Of a DNA stretch of 64,000 nucleotides, positions 44,890 through 56,306 are shown one piece after another. Made by a program: the position numbers and the translations under genes. The stretch is from Agromyces bauzanensis (GTDB lineage: Bacteria; Actinomycetota; Actinomycetes; Actinomycetales; Microbacteriaceae). Below the pieces are notes generated by a model. That model searched no databases. It saw only the letters and a list, made by a program, of their open reading frames with translations, and had not been told where the DNA came from. Within the stretch, counting starts at the first letter, position 1; every line of letters starts with the position of its first letter. Where the stretch lies: contig NZ_BMMD01000006.1 of assembly GCF_014645655.1 (NCBI RefSeq), positions 1-64,000 of the forward strand. The letters are read 5' to 3'.

Positions 44890-45083
44890 ATGGAATCGGG
44901 GGGACTCGAAGCGGCGGGCTACGCACGGTTTGTGACGTTCGGTGAGCTTCGGCGGCTCGGGGCGTCAACGAAGCCAGGCGTCTACGTCGTCCTTCGTTCA
45001 CCCTCCACGCAGCCCACATTTCTACCTGTCAGTCCCGCGGGGAAAGCTAAGAGCTTCACGGAGGATGTCGCGCACCTGCCAGA
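44890..45083 (+). pseudogene. N-terminal fragment of a GIY-YIG-type nuclease gene
   Basis: The frame begins with an ATG at 44890 and reads YARFVTFGELRRLGASTKPG, then VYVVLRSPSTQPTFLPVSPA. This is the opening strand of a GIY-YIG family seen in actinobacteria, where GVYVVLR stands for the GIY part. The YIG half and everything after it are gone; the EcsC gene begins about ten bases later in another frame. A deletion joined the two. Confidence 0.6.
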
Positions 45084-45095
45084 TGGCCTGACTGG

Positions 45096-46211
45096 ATGGC
45101 AGACCCGTCCGACTATGAACTCGCCGCGTGGCGCGACGTCCAGTGCTTCAAGGGACGCCCGCTGTCCCGAGCGATGCGAGGCGTCGGCGAGCAGATGGCG
45201 CTCGGCTTCTCAGCGATCGGCACCCAGGCAACGACGTACCTCGCGAAGCACCCCAAGACTCAAGCGGTCGTGGCGAAGGGGCAAGGAGCCGCGGTCAAGA
45301 CCGCCCAGGTTGTCGGGACGGGAGCGAAGCAGGCGGTCGGCGCGATCCCCGACGGCGTGACGGACTGGAGCGGCCAGGCGTTCGATTCGATTCGGCGCAT
45401 CGTGGGAAGGATCTCTCGCGTCGCGCTGTCGCCGGCCCGGGTGGTCAAGCTGCATCAGAAGCGCGGGCACGATGTAACGGATCTCGCAGATGTCCGGCGA
45501 CTCGACCTGAAGCAGGTCGACCTCGTCCGTGGACGCGCGGCGAGTTGGTACTACCCGGCGACTGCGGCGCTTTCTGGCGCCGGTGCGGGCTTCTTGATTA
45601 CTGGTGGCGAGCTCGCAGTACCCGTGTCCGGTGGTGCATCAGCCGCCCCATCTGGCGCCGTGATCGCGGGCGCCATGGTCGGCGACGCCGCAATCGTCCT
45701 CGGTCTGGCATCCCGCTGCGTCGGTCAGGTGTCGCTCCACTACGGCTACGACCCTGAGGAGCCCGCGGAGAAGCTCTTCATCATGTCCGTCGTCAACGCG
45801 GGGACCGCACTGTCCGCCACGGCAAAGGCTGCCGCGATGGCCGATGTTTCTCGGCTCACCCAGGCGCTCGTACGCGGAAAAGTGTGGAGCATTCTCGACA
45901 AGTCAGTCGTCTCCCAAGTGTCGAAGCAGTTCGCCAAGGCATTCGGCGTACGCTTCACGAAGCAGTCGCTCGGCAAGGTCGTGCCAGTGGCAGGAATCGT
46001 CCTCGGTGGCACCTTCAACTGGACGACGCTCGAGGCGATCGTGGATGCTGCGAACATCGCGTACCGACATCGGTTCCTTCTCGAGAAGTACCCGTCACTC
46101 GCAGCCGAAGAGGTGCCTGTATCCGTCACTGCCGAAGCCGCTGAGGACGCGGACGAGACAATCAGCGTCCTTCGGGAAGTCTCGGACGCTGGAGGCCCGG
46201 ACCTCGAATAG
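45096..46211 (+). CDS. EcsC family protein
   Basis: 371 residues. An amphipathic N-terminal part rich in Ala, Gly and Val (about 30-90) is followed by the EcsC domain (about 115-320): RGHDVTDLADVRRLDLKQVD, ASWYYPATAALSGAGAGFLI, VIAGAMVGDAAIVLGLASRC and QVSLHYGYDPEEPAEKLFIM. EcsC proteins are membrane-associated and widespread; their function is not established. The many small-residue stretches suggest membrane insertion. It is cargo in the second defence-rich region. Confidence 0.85.
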   Translation: MADPSDYELAAWRDVQCFKGRPLSRAMRGVGEQMALGFSAIGTQATTYLAKHPKTQAVVAKGQGAAVKTAQVVGTGAKQAVGAIPDGVTDWSGQAFDSIRRIVGRISRVALSPARVVKLHQKRGHDVTDLADVRRLDLKQVDLVRGRAASWYYPATAALSGAGAGFLITGGELAVPVSGGASAAPSGAVIAGAMVGDAAIVLGLASRCVGQVSLHYGYDPEEPAEKLFIMSVVNAGTALSATAKAAAMADVSRLTQALVRGKVWSILDKSVVSQVSKQFAKAFGVRFTKQSLGKVVPVAGIVLGGTFNWTTLEAIVDAANIAYRHRFLLEKYPSLAAEEVPVSVTAEAAEDADETISVLREVSDAGGPDLE

Positions 46212-48387: not shown

Positions 48388-49035
48388 GTGACGCAGACGA
48401 TCACCGAGGAGCTGATGGTGAAGTCACGGCATCGCGTCAAGGCTTACGGCGAGGTTTTCACCCCTCGGCACATGGTCAATCGCATGCTGGACCTGGTCCG
48501 TGAGGAGCTGGAGACCGGCCCGGACTTCGTCGATAAGACATTCCTCGAACCTGCCGCGGGCGACGGGAACTTCCTCGTCGCGATTCTGCACCGAAAGCTC
48601 CGAGCGATCGAGAAGCGGTGTCCACCCGAGTCCTGGCCCAACGAGTCCCTGTTCGCCCTCGCCTCGATCTACGGCATCGAACTGCTCGAGGACAACCACG
48701 AGGATGCCAAGGCGGCCATGCTCGCCGAGTTTTCGCGCTTCCACGCGAGGCACGATATCCCTTGCGGTCCCGACACAGGCCTGATGCGCGCTGCATCGTT
48801 CCTGGTCGACACGAACGTCATCCGCGGCAACACCCTGACCGGCCGCGACTGGCGTGGCAACGAGATCCAGTTCTCCTGGTGGAACCGGGTCCCCAACAGC
48901 CCTGGCATGGTGCAGCGCGACCCGTTCTCACTCGCCTCCTTGCGCGATGACAACGCCTTGGACTTCACCGTCTACGACACGTACGCGGTGTGCCGAATCG
49001 ACCACGTCCACGACGAAGCGAGAGCCAGTGGCTAG
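48388..49035 (+). CDS. Adenine-type DNA methyltransferase, SAM-binding half
   Basis: 215 residues, GTG start after GGGAG. Residues 18-60 carry the N-6 methylase signatures: motif X-like YGEVFTPRHMVNRMLDLV and motif I TFLEPAAGDGNFLVAILHRK, then YGIELLEDNHEDAKAAMLAE. The catalytic NPPY motif is not in this protein; it ends at residue 215. The third gene of the operon has NPPY. This three-gene arrangement with a helicase in the middle suggests a split or multi-subunit enzyme. Its stop overlaps the next start by eight bases. Confidence 0.82.
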   Translation: MTQTITEELMVKSRHRVKAYGEVFTPRHMVNRMLDLVREELETGPDFVDKTFLEPAAGDGNFLVAILHRKLRAIEKRCPPESWPNESLFALASIYGIELLEDNHEDAKAAMLAEFSRFHARHDIPCGPDTGLMRAASFLVDTNVIRGNTLTGRDWRGNEIQFSWWNRVPNSPGMVQRDPFSLASLRDDNALDFTVYDTYAVCRIDHVHDEARASG

Positions 49036-52000
49036 CCCGAACATCAGCACGTTCCACGAGGTGGTCCCCTACATCTATTCGTGGAAGACCCCCGACATCC
49101 CCAAGTACGACGGATGGGAGAAGATCGGGTACACCGAGCAGGAGTCTGCCGAGAAGCGAATCTCCCAACAGGGCAGTCAGCTCAACATCACGAAGATCAA
49201 GGTCTGGGCGTACAGGGCGGCATTCATCACCGAAGACGGTGGTACCTTCCGCGACTCCCACTTTCACGCCTTCCTCAAGCAGCAAGGCATCCAGCGCGAG
49301 TTCGACCCAACCAGCACACCGAGCCGCACGGAGTGGCACAAGTTCGCTGGTGCCCCGAAGACGAGCCAGCAGTACTTCTTCGAGTTCGCCTCGAAGTCCT
49401 TCACAACACCGCTCGGGGCGTCGCAGGATGACTACAGACTGCGGCCCGAGCAGCAGCAAGCCGTCAGCCAGGCGATGACGGCGTTCGGCCCGCAAGGGGC
49501 TGGTGAGGTGCTGTGGAACGCGAAGCCGCGATTCGGCAAGACGCTGACGACGTACGACCTGATGGCGAAGATGGATGTCAAGCGTGCCCTCATCGTCACC
49601 AATCGCCCAGCCATCGCCAACTCCTGGTTCGACGACTACCAGCGGTTCATCGGCCATCAGACCAGTTACCAGTTCGTGTCCGACTCGCCGTCGCTCGCGC
49701 AGCGCAGCCCGATGACGCGCGAGCAGTGGAGGGCGTACTCACTGGAGAACGTCGACCAGGACCCCCGCATCATCGAGTTCGTGTCGCTCCAGGACCTCAA
49801 GGGTTCGCAGTACTTCGGCGGCTCCTTCGACAAGCTCAAGCACATCGCCGACTTCGACTGGGACTTGCTCGTCATCGACGAGGCGCACGAAGGCGTCGAC
49901 ACGACCAAGACCGATGTGGCGTTCAACCAGATCAAGCGTCGCCACACGTTGCACCTGTCGGGCACTCCGTTCAAGGCGTTGGCGTCAGGACGCTTTAGCG
50001 ACAACCAGATCTTCAACTGGACGTACGAGAACGAGCAGGACGCCAAGGAGTCATGGGCGGACGACTCGATCGACAACCCGTACGCCCAGCTCCCGACCCT
50101 CAACCTCCTGACCTACCAGCTCTCCCGCATGGTGGCCGACCGGCTCACCGAAGGCGTTGCGCTCGACGAAGACGCGGGGAACGTCGACTACACATTCGAC
50201 CTGGCGGAGTTCTTTGCGACCAAGGAGAACGGCTACTTCGTCTACGAAGCTGACGTGACGCGGTTCTTGGACGCGCTGGCGACGCAGGAGAAGTACCCGT
50301 TCTCCACCCCGGAGCTGCGAGACGAGATCAGGCACTCGTTCTGGCTGCTCAACCGGGTCGCCTCCGCCAAGGCGCTGGAGCGGATGCTCAAGAAGCACCC
50401 TGTCTTCGGCGGGTACACGGTCATCCTGGCGGCCGGCGACGGCCGACCCCACGCTGACGAGAACGACGGGCTGGACGAGGATGCCGACGACTCGGTGACC
50501 GTGGGGAAGTCGCTCGACAAGGTCCGCGCGGCCATCGCAAAGGCGGAGGCCGAAGGCGGCAAGACGATCACGTTGTCAGTGGGTCAGCTCACGACTGGTG
50601 TCACGGTGCCCGAGTGGACGGCGGTCATAATGCTGTCCAATCTGTCCTCGCCCGCTCTCTACATGCAGGCGGCCTTCCGATCGCAGAACCCGTGCACGTT
50701 CACCCGCGGCGACAAGGTGTTCCAGAAGAAGAACGCCTACATCTTCGACTTCGCCCCCGAGCGCACGCTGACGATCTTTGACGCGTTCGCGAACAACCTC
50801 GCCCCGCACCCGCCGATCGATGCCGGTGAGCGCAGGGAGAATATCCGTCGGTTGCTGAACTTCTTCCCCATCCTGGGTGAGGACACCGAGGGCCGCATGA
50901 TCGAGCTCGACGCCGCTCAGGTCCTCACGTTCCCGCAGGTGTTCAAAGCTCGTGAGGTCGTTCGGCGGGGCTTCCTGTCGAACCTGCTTTTCGCGAACGT
51001 GTCTGGCATCTTCCGGGCCGTGGAGCACTTCCAGGACATCCTCAACCAGCTCCCCGTCGCCAAGGAGAAGAAGGCCGAGAAAGGCAAGCCAGTCGAGTTT
51101 CCGATCCCGCCGCCGACCACGGACGCGCACGGAAACGTGCAGATCGACGTCGGCACCGTAATCAACGCGAAGATCGCCGAGCTTGGCAAGCCGATCTACT
51201 CAGATGAGGACGTGCCGCCGCTGGACCCTGCCACGACGAAGGCGACTGAGGCGGCCAAGCAGATCGCCGCGGTCGTCACCGAGAAGGCGCGAGAGACACG
51301 GACGAAGGTCGCGGCCGAGTACGGCATGACGGCAAAGCAGGTCGAGAACGACGAGAAGGCCACCGAGGCGCAGGTGAAGGTCAAGGTGGAGCGGGCCTAC
51401 GTCGAACATCAGATCGTCTTGAACCACATCGAGGCCGAAGGCACGGACGCGGCGACGGAGGCCGAGTTCCTGGCTGTCGAGGCGAAGAAGGCTGAGGCGA
51501 AGGCCGAGCTCGACGCGCAGGTACTCTCGATCTTCCATCACACGCTCGACAACGTCACCGAGACCGTTGTCAAGCGCGAGGAGACAAAGAAGGTCCAGTC
51601 AGAGGCGAACAAGACGATGGACGCGGCCCGCGACCACCTGCGCGGGTTCGCAAGGACCATCCCGATGTTCCTCATGGCCTACGGCGACCAGAACATCACA
51701 CTCGCCAACTTCGACGACTACACCCCGGACGACGTGTTTGCTGAGATCACGGGGATCACCGAGGAGGACTTCCGGAAGCTTCGCGACGGTCGCGAAGTGA
51801 CCGACCAGAAGACCGGCGAGATCACCCGCGTCCCGGGCCTGTTCGACGAGGCTGTGTTCAACCAGGCGATCCAGGAGTTCCTGAACAAGAAGGACGGACT
51901 CTCCGACTACTTCGACCCGGCGCTGACCGAGGACATCTTCGCGTACATCCCGCAACAGAAGACATCGTTGGTGTTCACCCCGAAGCCGGTCGTGCAGATG

Positions 52001-52360
52001 ATGTGCGACACGCTGGAGGGGGCGACCCCGGGCATCTTCTCCGACCCGGACAAGACGTTCGCCGACCTGTTCTCCACCGCCGGTCTGTTCTGCATGGAGA
52101 TCGTCCGCCGGCTCGAAGAGGGCTTGGCCGACGCCATCCCTGACCAGGACGACCGGCTGCGGCACATCCTGACGCGGCAGGTGTTCGAGATGAGCCACAA
52201 CGAGATCCTGCACGCCATTACATTGGAGGCCGTCAGCGGTGGTGTGGCCGAGCGACGGGCTTGGCTGGAAGCCAGTGGGCACTTCCGGGTCGGCGACCTC
52301 GCCCGCATGACCTCCGAGGAACGCGAGCGGGTAGTGGACGAGATGCTGGGAGACAACTGA
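49028..52360 (+). CDS. Restriction helicase with N-terminal GIY-YIG-like domain and degenerate methylase C-terminus
   Basis: 1110 residues from a GTG at 49028. Residues about 10-45 (VVPYIYSWKTPDIPKYDGWE, KIGYTEQESAEKR) look like a GIY-YIG/T5orf172 nuclease core. A superfamily 2 helicase follows: WNAKPRFGKTLTTYDLM, LVIDEAHEG and LHLSGTPFKAL, then QLTTGVTVPEWTAVIMLSNL and ALYMQAAFRSQNP. A long coiled coil lies at about 730-860. The C-terminus (SLVFTPKPVVQMMCDTLEG, FADLFSTAGLFCMEIVRRLE) keeps methylase motifs X and a changed motif I. Predicted restriction and translocation subunit. Confidence 0.82.
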   Translation: MASPNISTFHEVVPYIYSWKTPDIPKYDGWEKIGYTEQESAEKRISQQGSQLNITKIKVWAYRAAFITEDGGTFRDSHFHAFLKQQGIQREFDPTSTPSRTEWHKFAGAPKTSQQYFFEFASKSFTTPLGASQDDYRLRPEQQQAVSQAMTAFGPQGAGEVLWNAKPRFGKTLTTYDLMAKMDVKRALIVTNRPAIANSWFDDYQRFIGHQTSYQFVSDSPSLAQRSPMTREQWRAYSLENVDQDPRIIEFVSLQDLKGSQYFGGSFDKLKHIADFDWDLLVIDEAHEGVDTTKTDVAFNQIKRRHTLHLSGTPFKALASGRFSDNQIFNWTYENEQDAKESWADDSIDNPYAQLPTLNLLTYQLSRMVADRLTEGVALDEDAGNVDYTFDLAEFFATKENGYFVYEADVTRFLDALATQEKYPFSTPELRDEIRHSFWLLNRVASAKALERMLKKHPVFGGYTVILAAGDGRPHADENDGLDEDADDSVTVGKSLDKVRAAIAKAEAEGGKTITLSVGQLTTGVTVPEWTAVIMLSNLSSPALYMQAAFRSQNPCTFTRGDKVFQKKNAYIFDFAPERTLTIFDAFANNLAPHPPIDAGERRENIRRLLNFFPILGEDTEGRMIELDAAQVLTFPQVFKAREVVRRGFLSNLLFANVSGIFRAVEHFQDILNQLPVAKEKKAEKGKPVEFPIPPPTTDAHGNVQIDVGTVINAKIAELGKPIYSDEDVPPLDPATTKATEAAKQIAAVVTEKARETRTKVAAEYGMTAKQVENDEKATEAQVKVKVERAYVEHQIVLNHIEAEGTDAATEAEFLAVEAKKAEAKAELDAQVLSIFHHTLDNVTETVVKREETKKVQSEANKTMDAARDHLRGFARTIPMFLMAYGDQNITLANFDDYTPDDVFAEITGITEEDFRKLRDGREVTDQKTGEITRVPGLFDEAVFNQAIQEFLNKKDGLSDYFDPALTEDIFAYIPQQKTSLVFTPKPVVQMMCDTLEGATPGIFSDPDKTFADLFSTAGLFCMEIVRRLEEGLADAIPDQDDRLRHILTRQVFEMSHNEILHAITLEAVSGGVAERRAWLEASGHFRVGDLARMTSEERERVVDEMLGDN

Positions 52361-52361
52361 C

Positions 52362-53417
52362 ATGGCCAAGAAGTTCGATGTCGTGATCGGCAATCCTCCC
52401 TACCAGGAGGAGGCCCAGGGCGAGGGCACTCGCGGTACCCCCATCTACCACCGCTTTATGGACGCCGCGTACGAGGTCGCCAGGAAAGCCGTGCTCATCA
52501 CACCAGCACGCTTTCTGTTCAACGCGGGGTTCACGCCGAAGGACTGGAACGAGAAGATGCTGGCGGACGAGTACCTGAGGGTGGCATATTTCGAGTCCGA
52601 CTCAAACCTCCTGTTTTCGAGCCTTACGGACCCTATCAAGGGCGGCATCGCCGTCACATACCGCGATTCGGAACTCAAGCTCGGCCCCATCGGTTTCTTC
52701 ACCAGGCACCCCGAGCTCAACACGATCCTGCACAAGGTCAACGTGTCCGGTGGCGAGTCTCTTGAACAGCTCGAAATCACGAGCTCTCGCTCATACCGCT
52801 ACACGGACAAGTTGTACGAGGACCACCCCCAGGCGTTGGCACTACGTCCGGTGGGTAATGCCGCGTTGGTGAACACGAACGCCTTCGAGCAGTTCTCCTT
52901 CCTCTACTACGCTGATGAACCCGCCGACGGCAACGGGTACGTGCGGATTCTCGGGGTGATCAAGAACAGACGATTCTTCCGCTGGATCAGCAGCGAGTAC
53001 ATCACCGGTCCTGAGAGCTTCGACAAGTACAAGGTTGCGGTTCCGGCGGCGAACGGGTCGGGGTCGACGACTGACTTCTTTGGCGTCGCGCTGAACAAGC
53101 CGACCGTGCTTGAGCCAAGAGTTGCGGTCACACAGACGTTCATCACCATCGGCTCGTTCGAGACCGAAGCAGAGGCGCAGGCGTGCCTGAAGTACATCAA
53201 GTCCAAGTTCGCGAGGACGCTGCTCGGTGTGTTGAAGATCACCCAGCACAATCCGGCGAAGGCGTGGAAGTACGTCCCTGTTCAAGACTTCACGCTCACG
53301 TCCGACATCGACTGGTCGAAGTCGATCCCCGAGATCGACGAGGAGCTCTACGCAAAGTACAGTCTCGACGCGGCCGAGATCGCGTTCATCGAATCCCAAG
53401 TCAAACCGACGGATTGA
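52362..53417 (+). CDS. Eco57I-type methylase/specificity protein
   Basis: 351 residues, starting one base after the helicase stop. It opens with the catalytic motif IV, KKFDVVIGNPPYQEEAQGEG, then TPIYHRFMDAAYEVARKAVL and ITPARFLFNAG, as in Eco57I-like methylases. The remainder (about 110-350) has the features of a target-recognition region (FLYYADEPADGNGYVRILGV, SFETEAEAQACLKYIKSKFA). Because motif I is in the preceding proteins, this one must act in a complex. It probably sets sequence specificity. Confidence 0.85.
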   Translation: MAKKFDVVIGNPPYQEEAQGEGTRGTPIYHRFMDAAYEVARKAVLITPARFLFNAGFTPKDWNEKMLADEYLRVAYFESDSNLLFSSLTDPIKGGIAVTYRDSELKLGPIGFFTRHPELNTILHKVNVSGGESLEQLEITSSRSYRYTDKLYEDHPQALALRPVGNAALVNTNAFEQFSFLYYADEPADGNGYVRILGVIKNRRFFRWISSEYITGPESFDKYKVAVPAANGSGSTTDFFGVALNKPTVLEPRVAVTQTFITIGSFETEAEAQACLKYIKSKFARTLLGVLKITQHNPAKAWKYVPVQDFTLTSDIDWSKSIPEIDEELYAKYSLDAAEIAFIESQVKPTD

Positions 53418-54346: not shown

Positions 54347-54937
54347 ATGTCCGCTCCACGCCCGTGGATGAAGAGCTGGCGGAAGACCCGTCGCTCGGCT
54401 CAGGAGCGCGCGAAAAGGATTCGAATACTCAACGCCGAACTTGATGTCCTACGCGGTGCGTCGTCCGAGCGGTCGCGGACCATCGACACGAAGGCGTCAT
54501 TCATCGTGGTGGTGGCGGGTGTGCTCGCATCGGTCACCGGTCTGTCGCTCGTCAGCACCGAAACCTGGCTCGTCGGGCTCTTACCGTTCGGCCTGACGGT
54601 CGCCGCTGTGGCAGTGGCGACGGCCGCCCTCTGGCCCCGGAAGATTGACCTACCGTCCGCGCGTGAAGTGGTCGACGCATGGGTTGACGCCGACATGCCC
54701 GCTGACGAACTCGAAGACAACGTCCTTGAAGTCAAGGCACAAGAAGTCACCAACCGTGACGCGCAGAACGAGAAGCGGGCGAAGCTGACGAATTGGGGCT
54801 TCGGCCTCGTGCTCGCCGGACTCGTTACGACTCTCGCCGTAGTAATTCTCACCACACTTAGCCCCACTTGGAGTAACCATGACGAAACCGAACCCACCCA
54901 AACCCCAGTCAACACCCAAGCCCCAGCCGCGACCTGA
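54347..54937 (+). CDS. Two-helix membrane protein heading the micro-gene array
   Basis: 196 residues from the ATG at 54347. A basic N-terminal helix (WRKTRRSAQERAKRIRILNA) is followed by two close membrane helices (about 50-68 and 72-92), a cytoplasmic stretch of about 55 residues (VVDAWVDADMPADELEDNVL, VKAQEVTNRDAQNEKRAKLT) and a third helix near 152-172. The Thr/Pro-rich C-terminus overlaps the first micro-gene (54879) by 59 bases in another frame. No family recognised. Similar topology is seen in small effector proteins of defence systems, but that is only a resemblance. Confidence 0.75.
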   Translation: MSAPRPWMKSWRKTRRSAQERAKRIRILNAELDVLRGASSERSRTIDTKASFIVVVAGVLASVTGLSLVSTETWLVGLLPFGLTVAAVAVATAALWPRKIDLPSAREVVDAWVDADMPADELEDNVLEVKAQEVTNRDAQNEKRAKLTNWGFGLVLAGLVTTLAVVILTTLSPTWSNHDETEPTQTPVNTQAPAAT

Positions 54938-54998
54938 CGTGACAATGGTGATGCAGACGCTGACGCACAGCGACAACACACCGATCGAGAAGCGATGA
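54879..54998 (+). CDS. Micro-gene 1 of the RPDV array (39 aa)
   Basis: ATG at 54879, inside the 3' end of the membrane-protein gene, ending with a TGA at 54996-54998. The first half is Pro/Lys-rich (KPNPPKPQSTPKPQP); then comes the shared motif RPDVTMVMQTLTHSD. The next micro-gene's ATG overlaps its stop (ATGA). Too short for normal gene finding, but the motif recurs in all four units, which is strong evidence that it is translated. Confidence 0.7.
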   Translation: MTKPNPPKPQSTPKPQPRPDVTMVMQTLTHSDNTPIEKR

Positions 54999-55108
54999 GC
55001 GACGACCAGGAGCCAAACCGGGAGCCCGCGTCGTCCCGGCCCGACGTTGAAATCGTGTTCAAGAAGGTCACGGCGACCCAGCACGAGGAACCGAAGGAAC
55101 AGCGATGA
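54995..55108 (+). CDS. Micro-gene 2 of the RPDV array (37 aa)
   Basis: ATG at 54995 overlapping the stop of unit 1, TGA at 55106-55108. It begins MSDDQEPNREPASS, then RPDVEIVFKKVTATQ, and ends with a charged tail. Its own stop overlaps the ATG of unit 3, so units 1-3 are translationally coupled. Confidence 0.7.
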   Translation: MSDDQEPNREPASSRPDVEIVFKKVTATQHEEPKEQR

Positions 55109-55230
55109 GTGATGTCACTTCCCCGCCACCTGCGCCGACACCCGCGCCTGCCTCGGCGTCGGCCCGTCCCGAAGTGGGAATGGTGTTTGAGACCTTGCTC
55201 GCGTCGGGTGACCGGACAACGAAGGAGTAA
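55105..55230 (+). CDS. Micro-gene 3 of the RPDV array (41 aa)
   Basis: ATG at 55105 overlapping the stop of unit 2, TAA at 55228-55230. Pro/Ala/Ser-rich first half (SPPPAPTPAPASASA), then RPEVGMVFETLLASGD. An AGGAG in its last codons serves as ribosome binding site for unit 4. Confidence 0.7.
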   Translation: MSDVTSPPPAPTPAPASASARPEVGMVFETLLASGDRTTKE

Positions 55231-55232
55231 CC

Positions 55233-55361
55233 ATGGGCGACGACGACAAGCCCCCGCCCCCGCATCCGCCTACGCGCCCGGATGTCGAGAAGGTGTTCAA
55301 GCGGCTGACGGAGAACGACCGTGGGCCGCAACCGCGCGGGGACGATGCCAGCGACGACTAG
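55233..55361 (+). CDS. Micro-gene 4 of the RPDV array (42 aa)
   Basis: ATG at 55233, two bases after the unit 3 stop, with AAGGAG seven bases upstream; TAG at 55359-55361. It begins MGDDDKPPPPHPPT, then RPDVEKVFKRLTEND, and has a longer acidic tail ending ASDD. A T-run at 55365-55370 follows. It is the last unit; the downstream sequence has no further copy. Confidence 0.7.
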   Translation: MGDDDKPPPPHPPTRPDVEKVFKRLTENDRGPQPRGDDASDD

Positions 55362-56092: not shown

Positions 56093-56270
56093 GAGGCACG
56101 TAGGCATGTCCCTCCGGCGTGTGGCCGTTTTGTGGCCTTTTTCAACCACAAACACCGCCAATCGGGGGCATCCAACGGAAGAACTCCGGCCGGCTAGATT
56201 AGCGCTTCTCCCATATAATTGCTGGCATCCACAACCAAACACGTGCGCTCAATGCGATGTGCAGCACTGT
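56093..56270. other. Right-end region of the element
   Basis: About 180 bases with no gene. AT-rich for this window (TTTTGTGGCCTTTTTCAACC, CCCATATAATTGCTGG). Integrase arm sites and the crossover region of the element's right end would be expected here. Confidence 0.4.
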
Positions 56271-56279
56271 CAGGGGGTC

Positions 56280-56306
56280 AGGGGTTCGAGTCCCCTCAGA
56301 TCCACC
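56280..56306 (+). other. 3' end of a tRNA- or tmRNA-like gene, probable attachment site
   Basis: Sequence 56280-56296 folds as a T arm (stem AGGGG/CCCCT, loop TTCGAGT). CAGATCC (56297-56303) could be the 3' strand of an acceptor stem, then discriminator A and CC. The matching 5' strand (GGATCTG) and the rest of the RNA are not found within the preceding 300 bases, so this is only the 3' end. That is what integration into a tRNA or tmRNA gene leaves at the far end of an element. The intact gene copy should lie beyond the left window edge. Confidence 0.7.

Follow-up and report, generated by a model that had tools for sequence, protein, structure and literature searches.

Within the window, by which we mean the whole 64,000-nucleotide stretch of the Agromyces bauzanensis contig that was analyzed, a gene for a 196-aa membrane protein (54347..54937, plus strand; recognized by ORF reading, hydropathy, AlphaFold2 and homologues) is followed on the same strand by four micro-ORFs. 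Each is an ATG frame whose core is recovered by a sequence profile: micro-ORF 1 (39 aa, 54879..54998) with core RPDVTMVMQTLTHS at 54930-54971, micro-ORF 2 (37 aa, 54995..55108) with core RPDVEIVFKKVTAT, micro-ORF 3 (41 aa, 55105..55230) with core RPEVGMVFETLLAS, and micro-ORF 4 (42 aa, 55233..55361) with core RPDVEKVFKRLTEN. The original prediction had described this arrangement, and re-reading of the coordinates found all of it in place: four successive ATG frames of 39, 37, 41 and 42 codons, ATGA overlaps between units 1 and 2 and between units 2 and 3, a fourth unit that starts two bases past the stop codon of the third with an AGGAG site ahead of it, and a first unit that begins within the 3' end of the membrane gene, 59 nt inside it.

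A shared core had also been claimed for the four products. RP(D/E)V is indeed present in every unit, whereas the Thr, which had been claimed as usual but not constant, is absent from unit 3; the window consensus is RPDVxxVFxxLT. By eye, the PD helix cap is followed by hydrophobic residues at i, i+1 and i+4 (V-F-L in unit 4, and L-I-L in the core of the related locus L050). Judged by hydrophobic moment, only unit 4 among the four has a strongly amphipathic core (0.77, vs. 0.30-0.35 for the other three). None of the four units contains a membrane-like segment (19-residue hydropathy, maximum 0.59), and the micro-proteins tested matched no family in the profile libraries searched, Pfam, PADLOC and PHROG among them. 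Micro-ORF 1 is similar to the first units of loci L014 and L030, and micro-ORF 4 to the last unit of L030 (RPDVKKVFKRLNEG).

The membrane protein had been taken for a two-helix protein. Instead, it has three hydrophobic segments (about residues 50-69, 74-95 and 151-173) and four predicted helices, and its parts follow each other as a basic N-terminal helix, two segments, helices at 96-150, the third segment and a short Pro/Thr/acidic tail. The N-terminal 50 residues carry a net charge of +9, and E31, R42, A57 and P97 are nearly invariant across 14 membrane-protein rows. The four helices come from an AlphaFold2 single-chain model (8 rows) of moderate confidence (pLDDT 76, pTM 0.52). As a predicted fold, this helix arrangement fits a small SLATT-type effector with a hairpin and a cytosolic helix. 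Foldseek with the model returned no match at E ≤ 0.001, the best viral row having an E of 7.8e-3 and a TM-score of 0.31; a NINJ1 chain at rank 10 (E 1.2) was too weak and was not used, and no convincing relative was found among solved structures (best E 0.41). The best Pfam score of the window protein was to DUF7139 (E 1.9e-4, under the cut-off of that family), and the actinobacterial Holin-X model matched 2/8 members of the membrane-protein family (best E 4.2e-4).

Coding Potential of the Micro-ORFs

A 14-position profile was trained on seven cores, all from genomes other than that of the window, and was run over the window in six frames, where 101,454 stop-free positions were scored. Ranks 1-4 went to the four window cores, with 38.2, 25.2, 21.4 and 19.2 bits, and the fifth position reached 11.3 bits. 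The RP(D/E)V codons of units 1-4 are CGA/CGG/CGT/CGC, CCT/CCC/CCC/CCG, GAC/GAC/GAA/GAT and GTG/GTT/GTG/GTC. All differences fall at the third position (0.875 per codon pair), none at the first two. A similar count between the micro-ORFs of L050 and L052 gave 17 synonymous and 5 nonsynonymous codon changes (4/3/16 by codon position). Rfam, searched for a structured-RNA origin of the micro-frames, gave no match at gathering score.

Substitution patterns were compared in three sets, 10 RPDV/DPDV micro-ORFs, 11 GRPDY first peptides and 8 GRPDY second peptides, the pairs of which are divergent, partly paralogous and non-independent. Median pN/pS was 0.65, 0.71 and 0.55, respectively, vs. mean medians of 0.85, 0.83 and 0.85 in codon-shuffled, realigned controls, and in every set the observed median lay below all 40 shuffles. 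pN/pS was also below 1 in 128/128 pairs, a count that carries little weight because protein-based alignment alone gives mostly values below 1. Since the shuffled controls likewise yield such values in most pairs (averages of 36.7/45, 47.6/55 and 22.0/28), we place the coding argument on the medians. As far as codon patterns can, these data demonstrate that the micro-ORFs are protein-coding and conserved. The original prediction had proposed selection on the peptides, and it is borne out by the recurrence of micro-ORFs behind homologous membrane genes and by codon-periodic substitutions beyond the shuffled control; the two outcomes named as speaking against it, micro-frames without conservation and substitutions without codon periodicity, did not arise.

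Distribution and Peptide Types

Membrane-protein searches gave matches in 3/100 relatives, 20/398 family genomes, 8/396 order genomes, 3/394 class genomes (alignment query) and 10/396 phylum genomes, and at 8 loci in a collection of 84,980 species, counts in which the window is included, along with repeated entries and some matches that are short or spurious. The gene is also found on Clavibacter and Curtobacterium plasmids. Its distribution is patchy, at most 20/398 family and 8/396 order genomes carrying it. Genus searches around genomes G858 and G863 found no further RPDV locus, and a DNA-level search of plasmids no relatives. Three membrane-protein queries had no match in a phage collection, three scans of viral contigs gave no confirmed relative, and PHROGs gave no match; a phage origin of the module was rejected on these nulls.

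Behind the membrane genes, micro-ORFs occur in other Microbacteriaceae, on the Clavibacter and Curtobacterium plasmids and in distant Actinomycetota. They sit at or across the stop codon of the membrane gene, number 1 to 4 per locus and follow a common plan of a Pro/acidic head, 'PD' and a short helix-like core. By reading, the RPDV type of the window is found with two units in L014 (Frigoribacterium sp. JB110), two in L030 and one in L029, where the start lies 94 nt upstream of the membrane stop codon. The L014 reading is identical in L004 and in L015 (Brevibacterium aurantiacum), and the same reading in Frigoribacterium and Brevibacterium would reflect either transfer or contamination. A DPDV type is represented by Agromyces subbeticus (L016), with a single 52-aa ORF that holds two DPDV cores.

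Eleven loci (L013, L017-L022, L024, L026-L028) were read as a GRPDY type with one or two tandem ORFs, some of which start with GTG or TTG. The N-terminus of these peptides is (G/A/S)RP(D/E/N/G)(Y/F) and many hold LTxS- or LQxS-like repeats; in clades other than that of the window the cores are GRPDY..LTxSD and PDEELITYLERG. TLTHSDN of the window was found again in L019. GRPDY peptides such as that at L013:4452-4640 are acidic, with two or three internal GxLxxGD-like repeats that, as an impression, recall multivalent or amyloid-like signaling motifs. Microbacterium sp. T32 has two modules (L017, L021) with clearly different peptide pairs, which makes it suited to partner-specificity tests. In distant Actinomycetota, L050, L052, L053 and L076 were read as a PDEL type, PPP(F/Y)(E/A)PD(E/P)(E/R)LI..(L/M)E(R/K)G, and the micro-ORFs of L050 and L052 have a four-base overlap with the membrane stop codon.

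Association With the Membrane Gene

The association was scored with a rule (Shine-Dalgarno-like site, ATG/GTG start between about -90 and +45 relative to the stop codon, length of 25-80 codons, PD-like pattern) that was drawn up with the family already in view, in a comparison that was not blind. The rule matched 20/34 membrane loci vs. 1/15 PF18967 (PycTM) loci (Fisher p 6e-4), and 23/34 vs. 1/15 when the PD condition was left out. The 'PD' pattern was loose for L006, L039, L041 and L054, and the single PycTM control match (L071) is unlike the micro-ORF plan. Missed by the rule were L018 (TTG start), L027 and L029 (start -94), all three of which have a micro-ORF by reading; rule and reading together place a coupled small partner, overlapping or close, at 23/34 membrane loci. 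The count of 34 leaves out L007, L008, L042, L055, L057 and L058 (truncated genes, or matches that are short or spurious) and the duplicates L002, L004, L005, L009-L012, L015, L023, L025, L043-L045, L049 and L051; L076, found later with its duplicates L074 and L075, and the second Clavibacter plasmid also lie outside it. At L042 and L055 it is the membrane gene copies that appear truncated.

Short ORFs of uncertain kinship stand behind the membrane genes of L003, L006, L039, L040, L041 and L054, those of L003 and L040 being without PD, and at seven of the 34 loci (L031, L032, L033, L036, L037, L038, L056) neither the rule nor reading shows a short partner ORF. Because some loci are without one, a PD micro-protein may not be required by the membrane protein in every case. 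At L034 and L035 the membrane gene is followed by a 110-123 aa DUF2188 protein in place of the PD micro-protein, possibly as an alternative partner.

In a 29-row tree of the membrane protein, which has several long branches and unsure deep placement, the 11 GRPDY loci form one group (100/99), as do the 4 RPDV loci (94/91, below the starred level) and the 2 PDEL loci (100/98). At the resolution of this tree, the grouping shows that peptide type is inherited together with the membrane-protein clade. The tie of the peptides to the membrane protein, proposed from the window alone, thus gains support from this tracking and from recurrence behind homologues.

Genomic Context

Profile matches place type IIG-like R-M genes at 48388-53417, in three frames (a methylase N-part, a ResIII helicase protein and an Eco57I-type methylase), and an EcsC-domain protein, PADLOC candidate PDC-S29, at 45096-46211. 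A GIY-YIG-looking ORF was noted by eye at 44890, close to the EcsC-domain gene. The window neighborhood also encodes a TrwC relaxase, and 56270-56306 holds the 3' end of a tRNA-Ala(GGC) without its 5' part, about 37 bases identical to the intact gene on contig G000:C4. This fragment is likely the end of an integrated element.

The Curtobacterium plasmid copy of the module adjoins a BsuBI/PstI nuclease and an Eco57I methylase, and L018 adjoins an HmaA helicase (1308 bits); among the loci examined, three (the window, L018 and L022) have defense-gene neighbors. With such neighbors and with copies on two plasmid types (Clavibacter and Curtobacterium), the module shows the defense-island and mobile-element setting of anti-phage systems. 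Neighbors vary among the loci examined, where no constant upstream partner was seen, and no conserved sensor or trigger was found. The neighbor scan covered 18 proteins, 9 from the window and 9 from six relatives, of which 9/18 were without any Pfam match.

Comparison With Known Systems

Judged by profiles and part order, the membrane protein resembles PycTM/SLATT-type defense effectors, yet it is a non-member by the tests run. PycTM (PF18967; PADLOC PDLC02363/02364) is described as pore-forming in PMC11224242. Both proteins have three hydrophobic segments and, by eye, a similar order of parts, and the window protein shows weak profile similarity to PycTM near the first hairpin. Its match to PADLOC PycTM has an E of 2.3e-5, and the two PADLOC PycTM models each match 5/8 family members at E ≤ 0.1 (best 7.1e-6 and 2.3e-5). 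PF18967 gave no match to the window protein at E ≤ 1, matched 1/8 relatives at E 0.034 (below the Pfam cut-off) and had 0 matches at 1e-5 in the window's own genome. No pyrimidine cyclase was recognized among the 18 neighbor proteins, half of them without a Pfam match, and the PycTM loci differ in that 14/15 are without a micro-ORF rule match. Full PycTM membership was rejected on the cut-off, the absence of a cyclase among the scanned neighbors and the control loci.

Pfam SLATT models matched neither the window protein (E ≤ 1) nor the eight members (E ≤ 0.1). The likeness to SLATT systems lies in a small membrane effector predicted to form pores and, for DRT10, in a co-encoded multivalent partner: PMC12632851 proposes that repetitive cDNA restrains an oligomeric SLATT effector multivalently. 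SLATT effectors also appear in GTPase conflict systems, according to PMC7159879. The partner here is a micro-protein array and not a nucleotide, cDNA or GTPase. PMC7159879 also presents actinobacterial peptide-processing conflict systems with FxSxx, RxD and acidic peptides, a zincin protease and an AP-ATPase. Common to both are fast-diverging small proteins that keep a short motif, an 'RxD' type among them, whereas the zincin protease and AP-ATPase were not recognized among the 18 neighbors here.

Type II toxin-antitoxin systems are also small modules of two parts, in which the genes are coupled and one partner is a small soluble protein. The antitoxin gene usually comes first in their operons. 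Here, against an antitoxin-like order, the partner gene follows the membrane gene, and the partner has no Pfam domain, goes down to 37 aa and is present in 1-4 divergent copies. The original prediction knew of no described system of this form, in agreement with the profile-family searches and with the literature, in which none was found (weak evidence, from an open-access library only).

Discussion

The explanation that we prefer, which falls just short of being probable, is a self-contained mobile two-part module in which the micro-proteins would dock on cytosolic effector helices and silence the effector until the cell is infected. The effector would be a three-span membrane protein of PycTM/SLATT-like type, accompanied by one to four dedicated soluble micro-proteins, each composed of a flexible Pro-rich/acidic stretch and a PD-capped short core. 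These would bind effector residues 1-50 and 96-150, the putative cytosolic helices; with an N-terminus of such positive charge and with residues 96-150 between segments 2 and 3, the cytosolic face would be the natural docking site. Bound micro-proteins would keep the effector inactive, like an antitoxin or a gating subunit. Coupled translation would mean that inhibitor is always produced alongside effector, and multiple units would increase the amount of inhibitor, or its valence where the effector is an oligomer. The block would be lifted when phage infects, and the resulting damage to the membrane would arrest the infected cell. We infer all of these roles: docking and inhibition by the micro-proteins, pore formation by the membrane protein and defense against phage. 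We prefer restraint because effector and units are encoded together and the number of units can grow, and because multivalent restraint is proposed for a SLATT effector in PMC12632851. A single binding mode for all peptide types is not certain, since the GRPDY peptides are laid out differently and contain internal repeats.

The same genetic evidence would be obtained if the micro-proteins were activators or obligatory subunits, assembling on the membrane protein or relaying an infection signal to an effector that is inert without them. Different units in one operon could then answer different triggers, and the two modules with different peptides in Microbacterium sp. T32 (L017, L021) would suit such a role. 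However, overlap with the stop codon and extra units suit constant restraint at least equally, and proteins this short show no recognizable sensor domain, so that we regard activation as rather unlikely. It is less likely again, and in our judgment improbable, that there is no defense role and that the micro-proteins are ordinary accessory subunits of a channel or transporter with a housekeeping function, or small partners of a holin-like protein. Dedicated co-encoded micro-proteins do exist in housekeeping membrane complexes, CydX and KdpF being small subunits of this kind, and two of the eight members match Holin-X. Nevertheless, the four window units are without a membrane-like segment, PHROGs gave no match, and the distribution is patchy even with the window's own genome and spurious rows included in the counts. 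Plasmid copies, defense neighbors at three loci and the same reading in Frigoribacterium and Brevibacterium, whether by transfer or contamination, likewise argue against a housekeeping function.

Paralogous small peptides encoded in pairs next to a membrane gene are reminiscent of two-peptide bacteriocins. The micro-ORFs might encode precursors of bacteriocins or modified peptides, with the conserved part as leader and the membrane protein for immunity or export. This is highly unlikely, given that the peptides are hydrophilic, that visual inspection revealed no leader-like cleavage site, and that no modification, protease or exporter gene was recognized among the 18 neighbors (9/18 without a Pfam match). 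High-GC DNA is rich in very short frames, and the ORF list of the window has many. The micro-ORFs might thus be open merely by chance; another thought is a structured RNA or a regulatory repeat that was mistaken for coding sequence. Codon-periodic conservation, profile ranks 1-4 of 101,454 and the Rfam null leave such origins with practically no probability, and we rejected them.

Returning to restraint of a membrane effector, it is possible, if doubtful, that the array forms an adjustable gate on an immune effector. Several peptides with the shared PD-capped core but differing heads and tails would then act on one effector, and would allow its threshold to be set by copy number, or different phage insults to release it through different units. 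The pairing would be old, spanning distant Actinomycetota, while the number of units in the array expands and contracts.

Micro-genes are easily overlooked in annotation, and the partner of an effector may stay invisible. PycTM/SLATT-like 'orphan' membrane proteins may therefore have micro-protein controllers that were overlooked. The module is about 1 kb in size, mobile and experimentally tractable in laboratory strains, and its natural series of 1 to 4 units and several motif types may help to establish how micro-protein copy number and sequence set the threshold of an effector.
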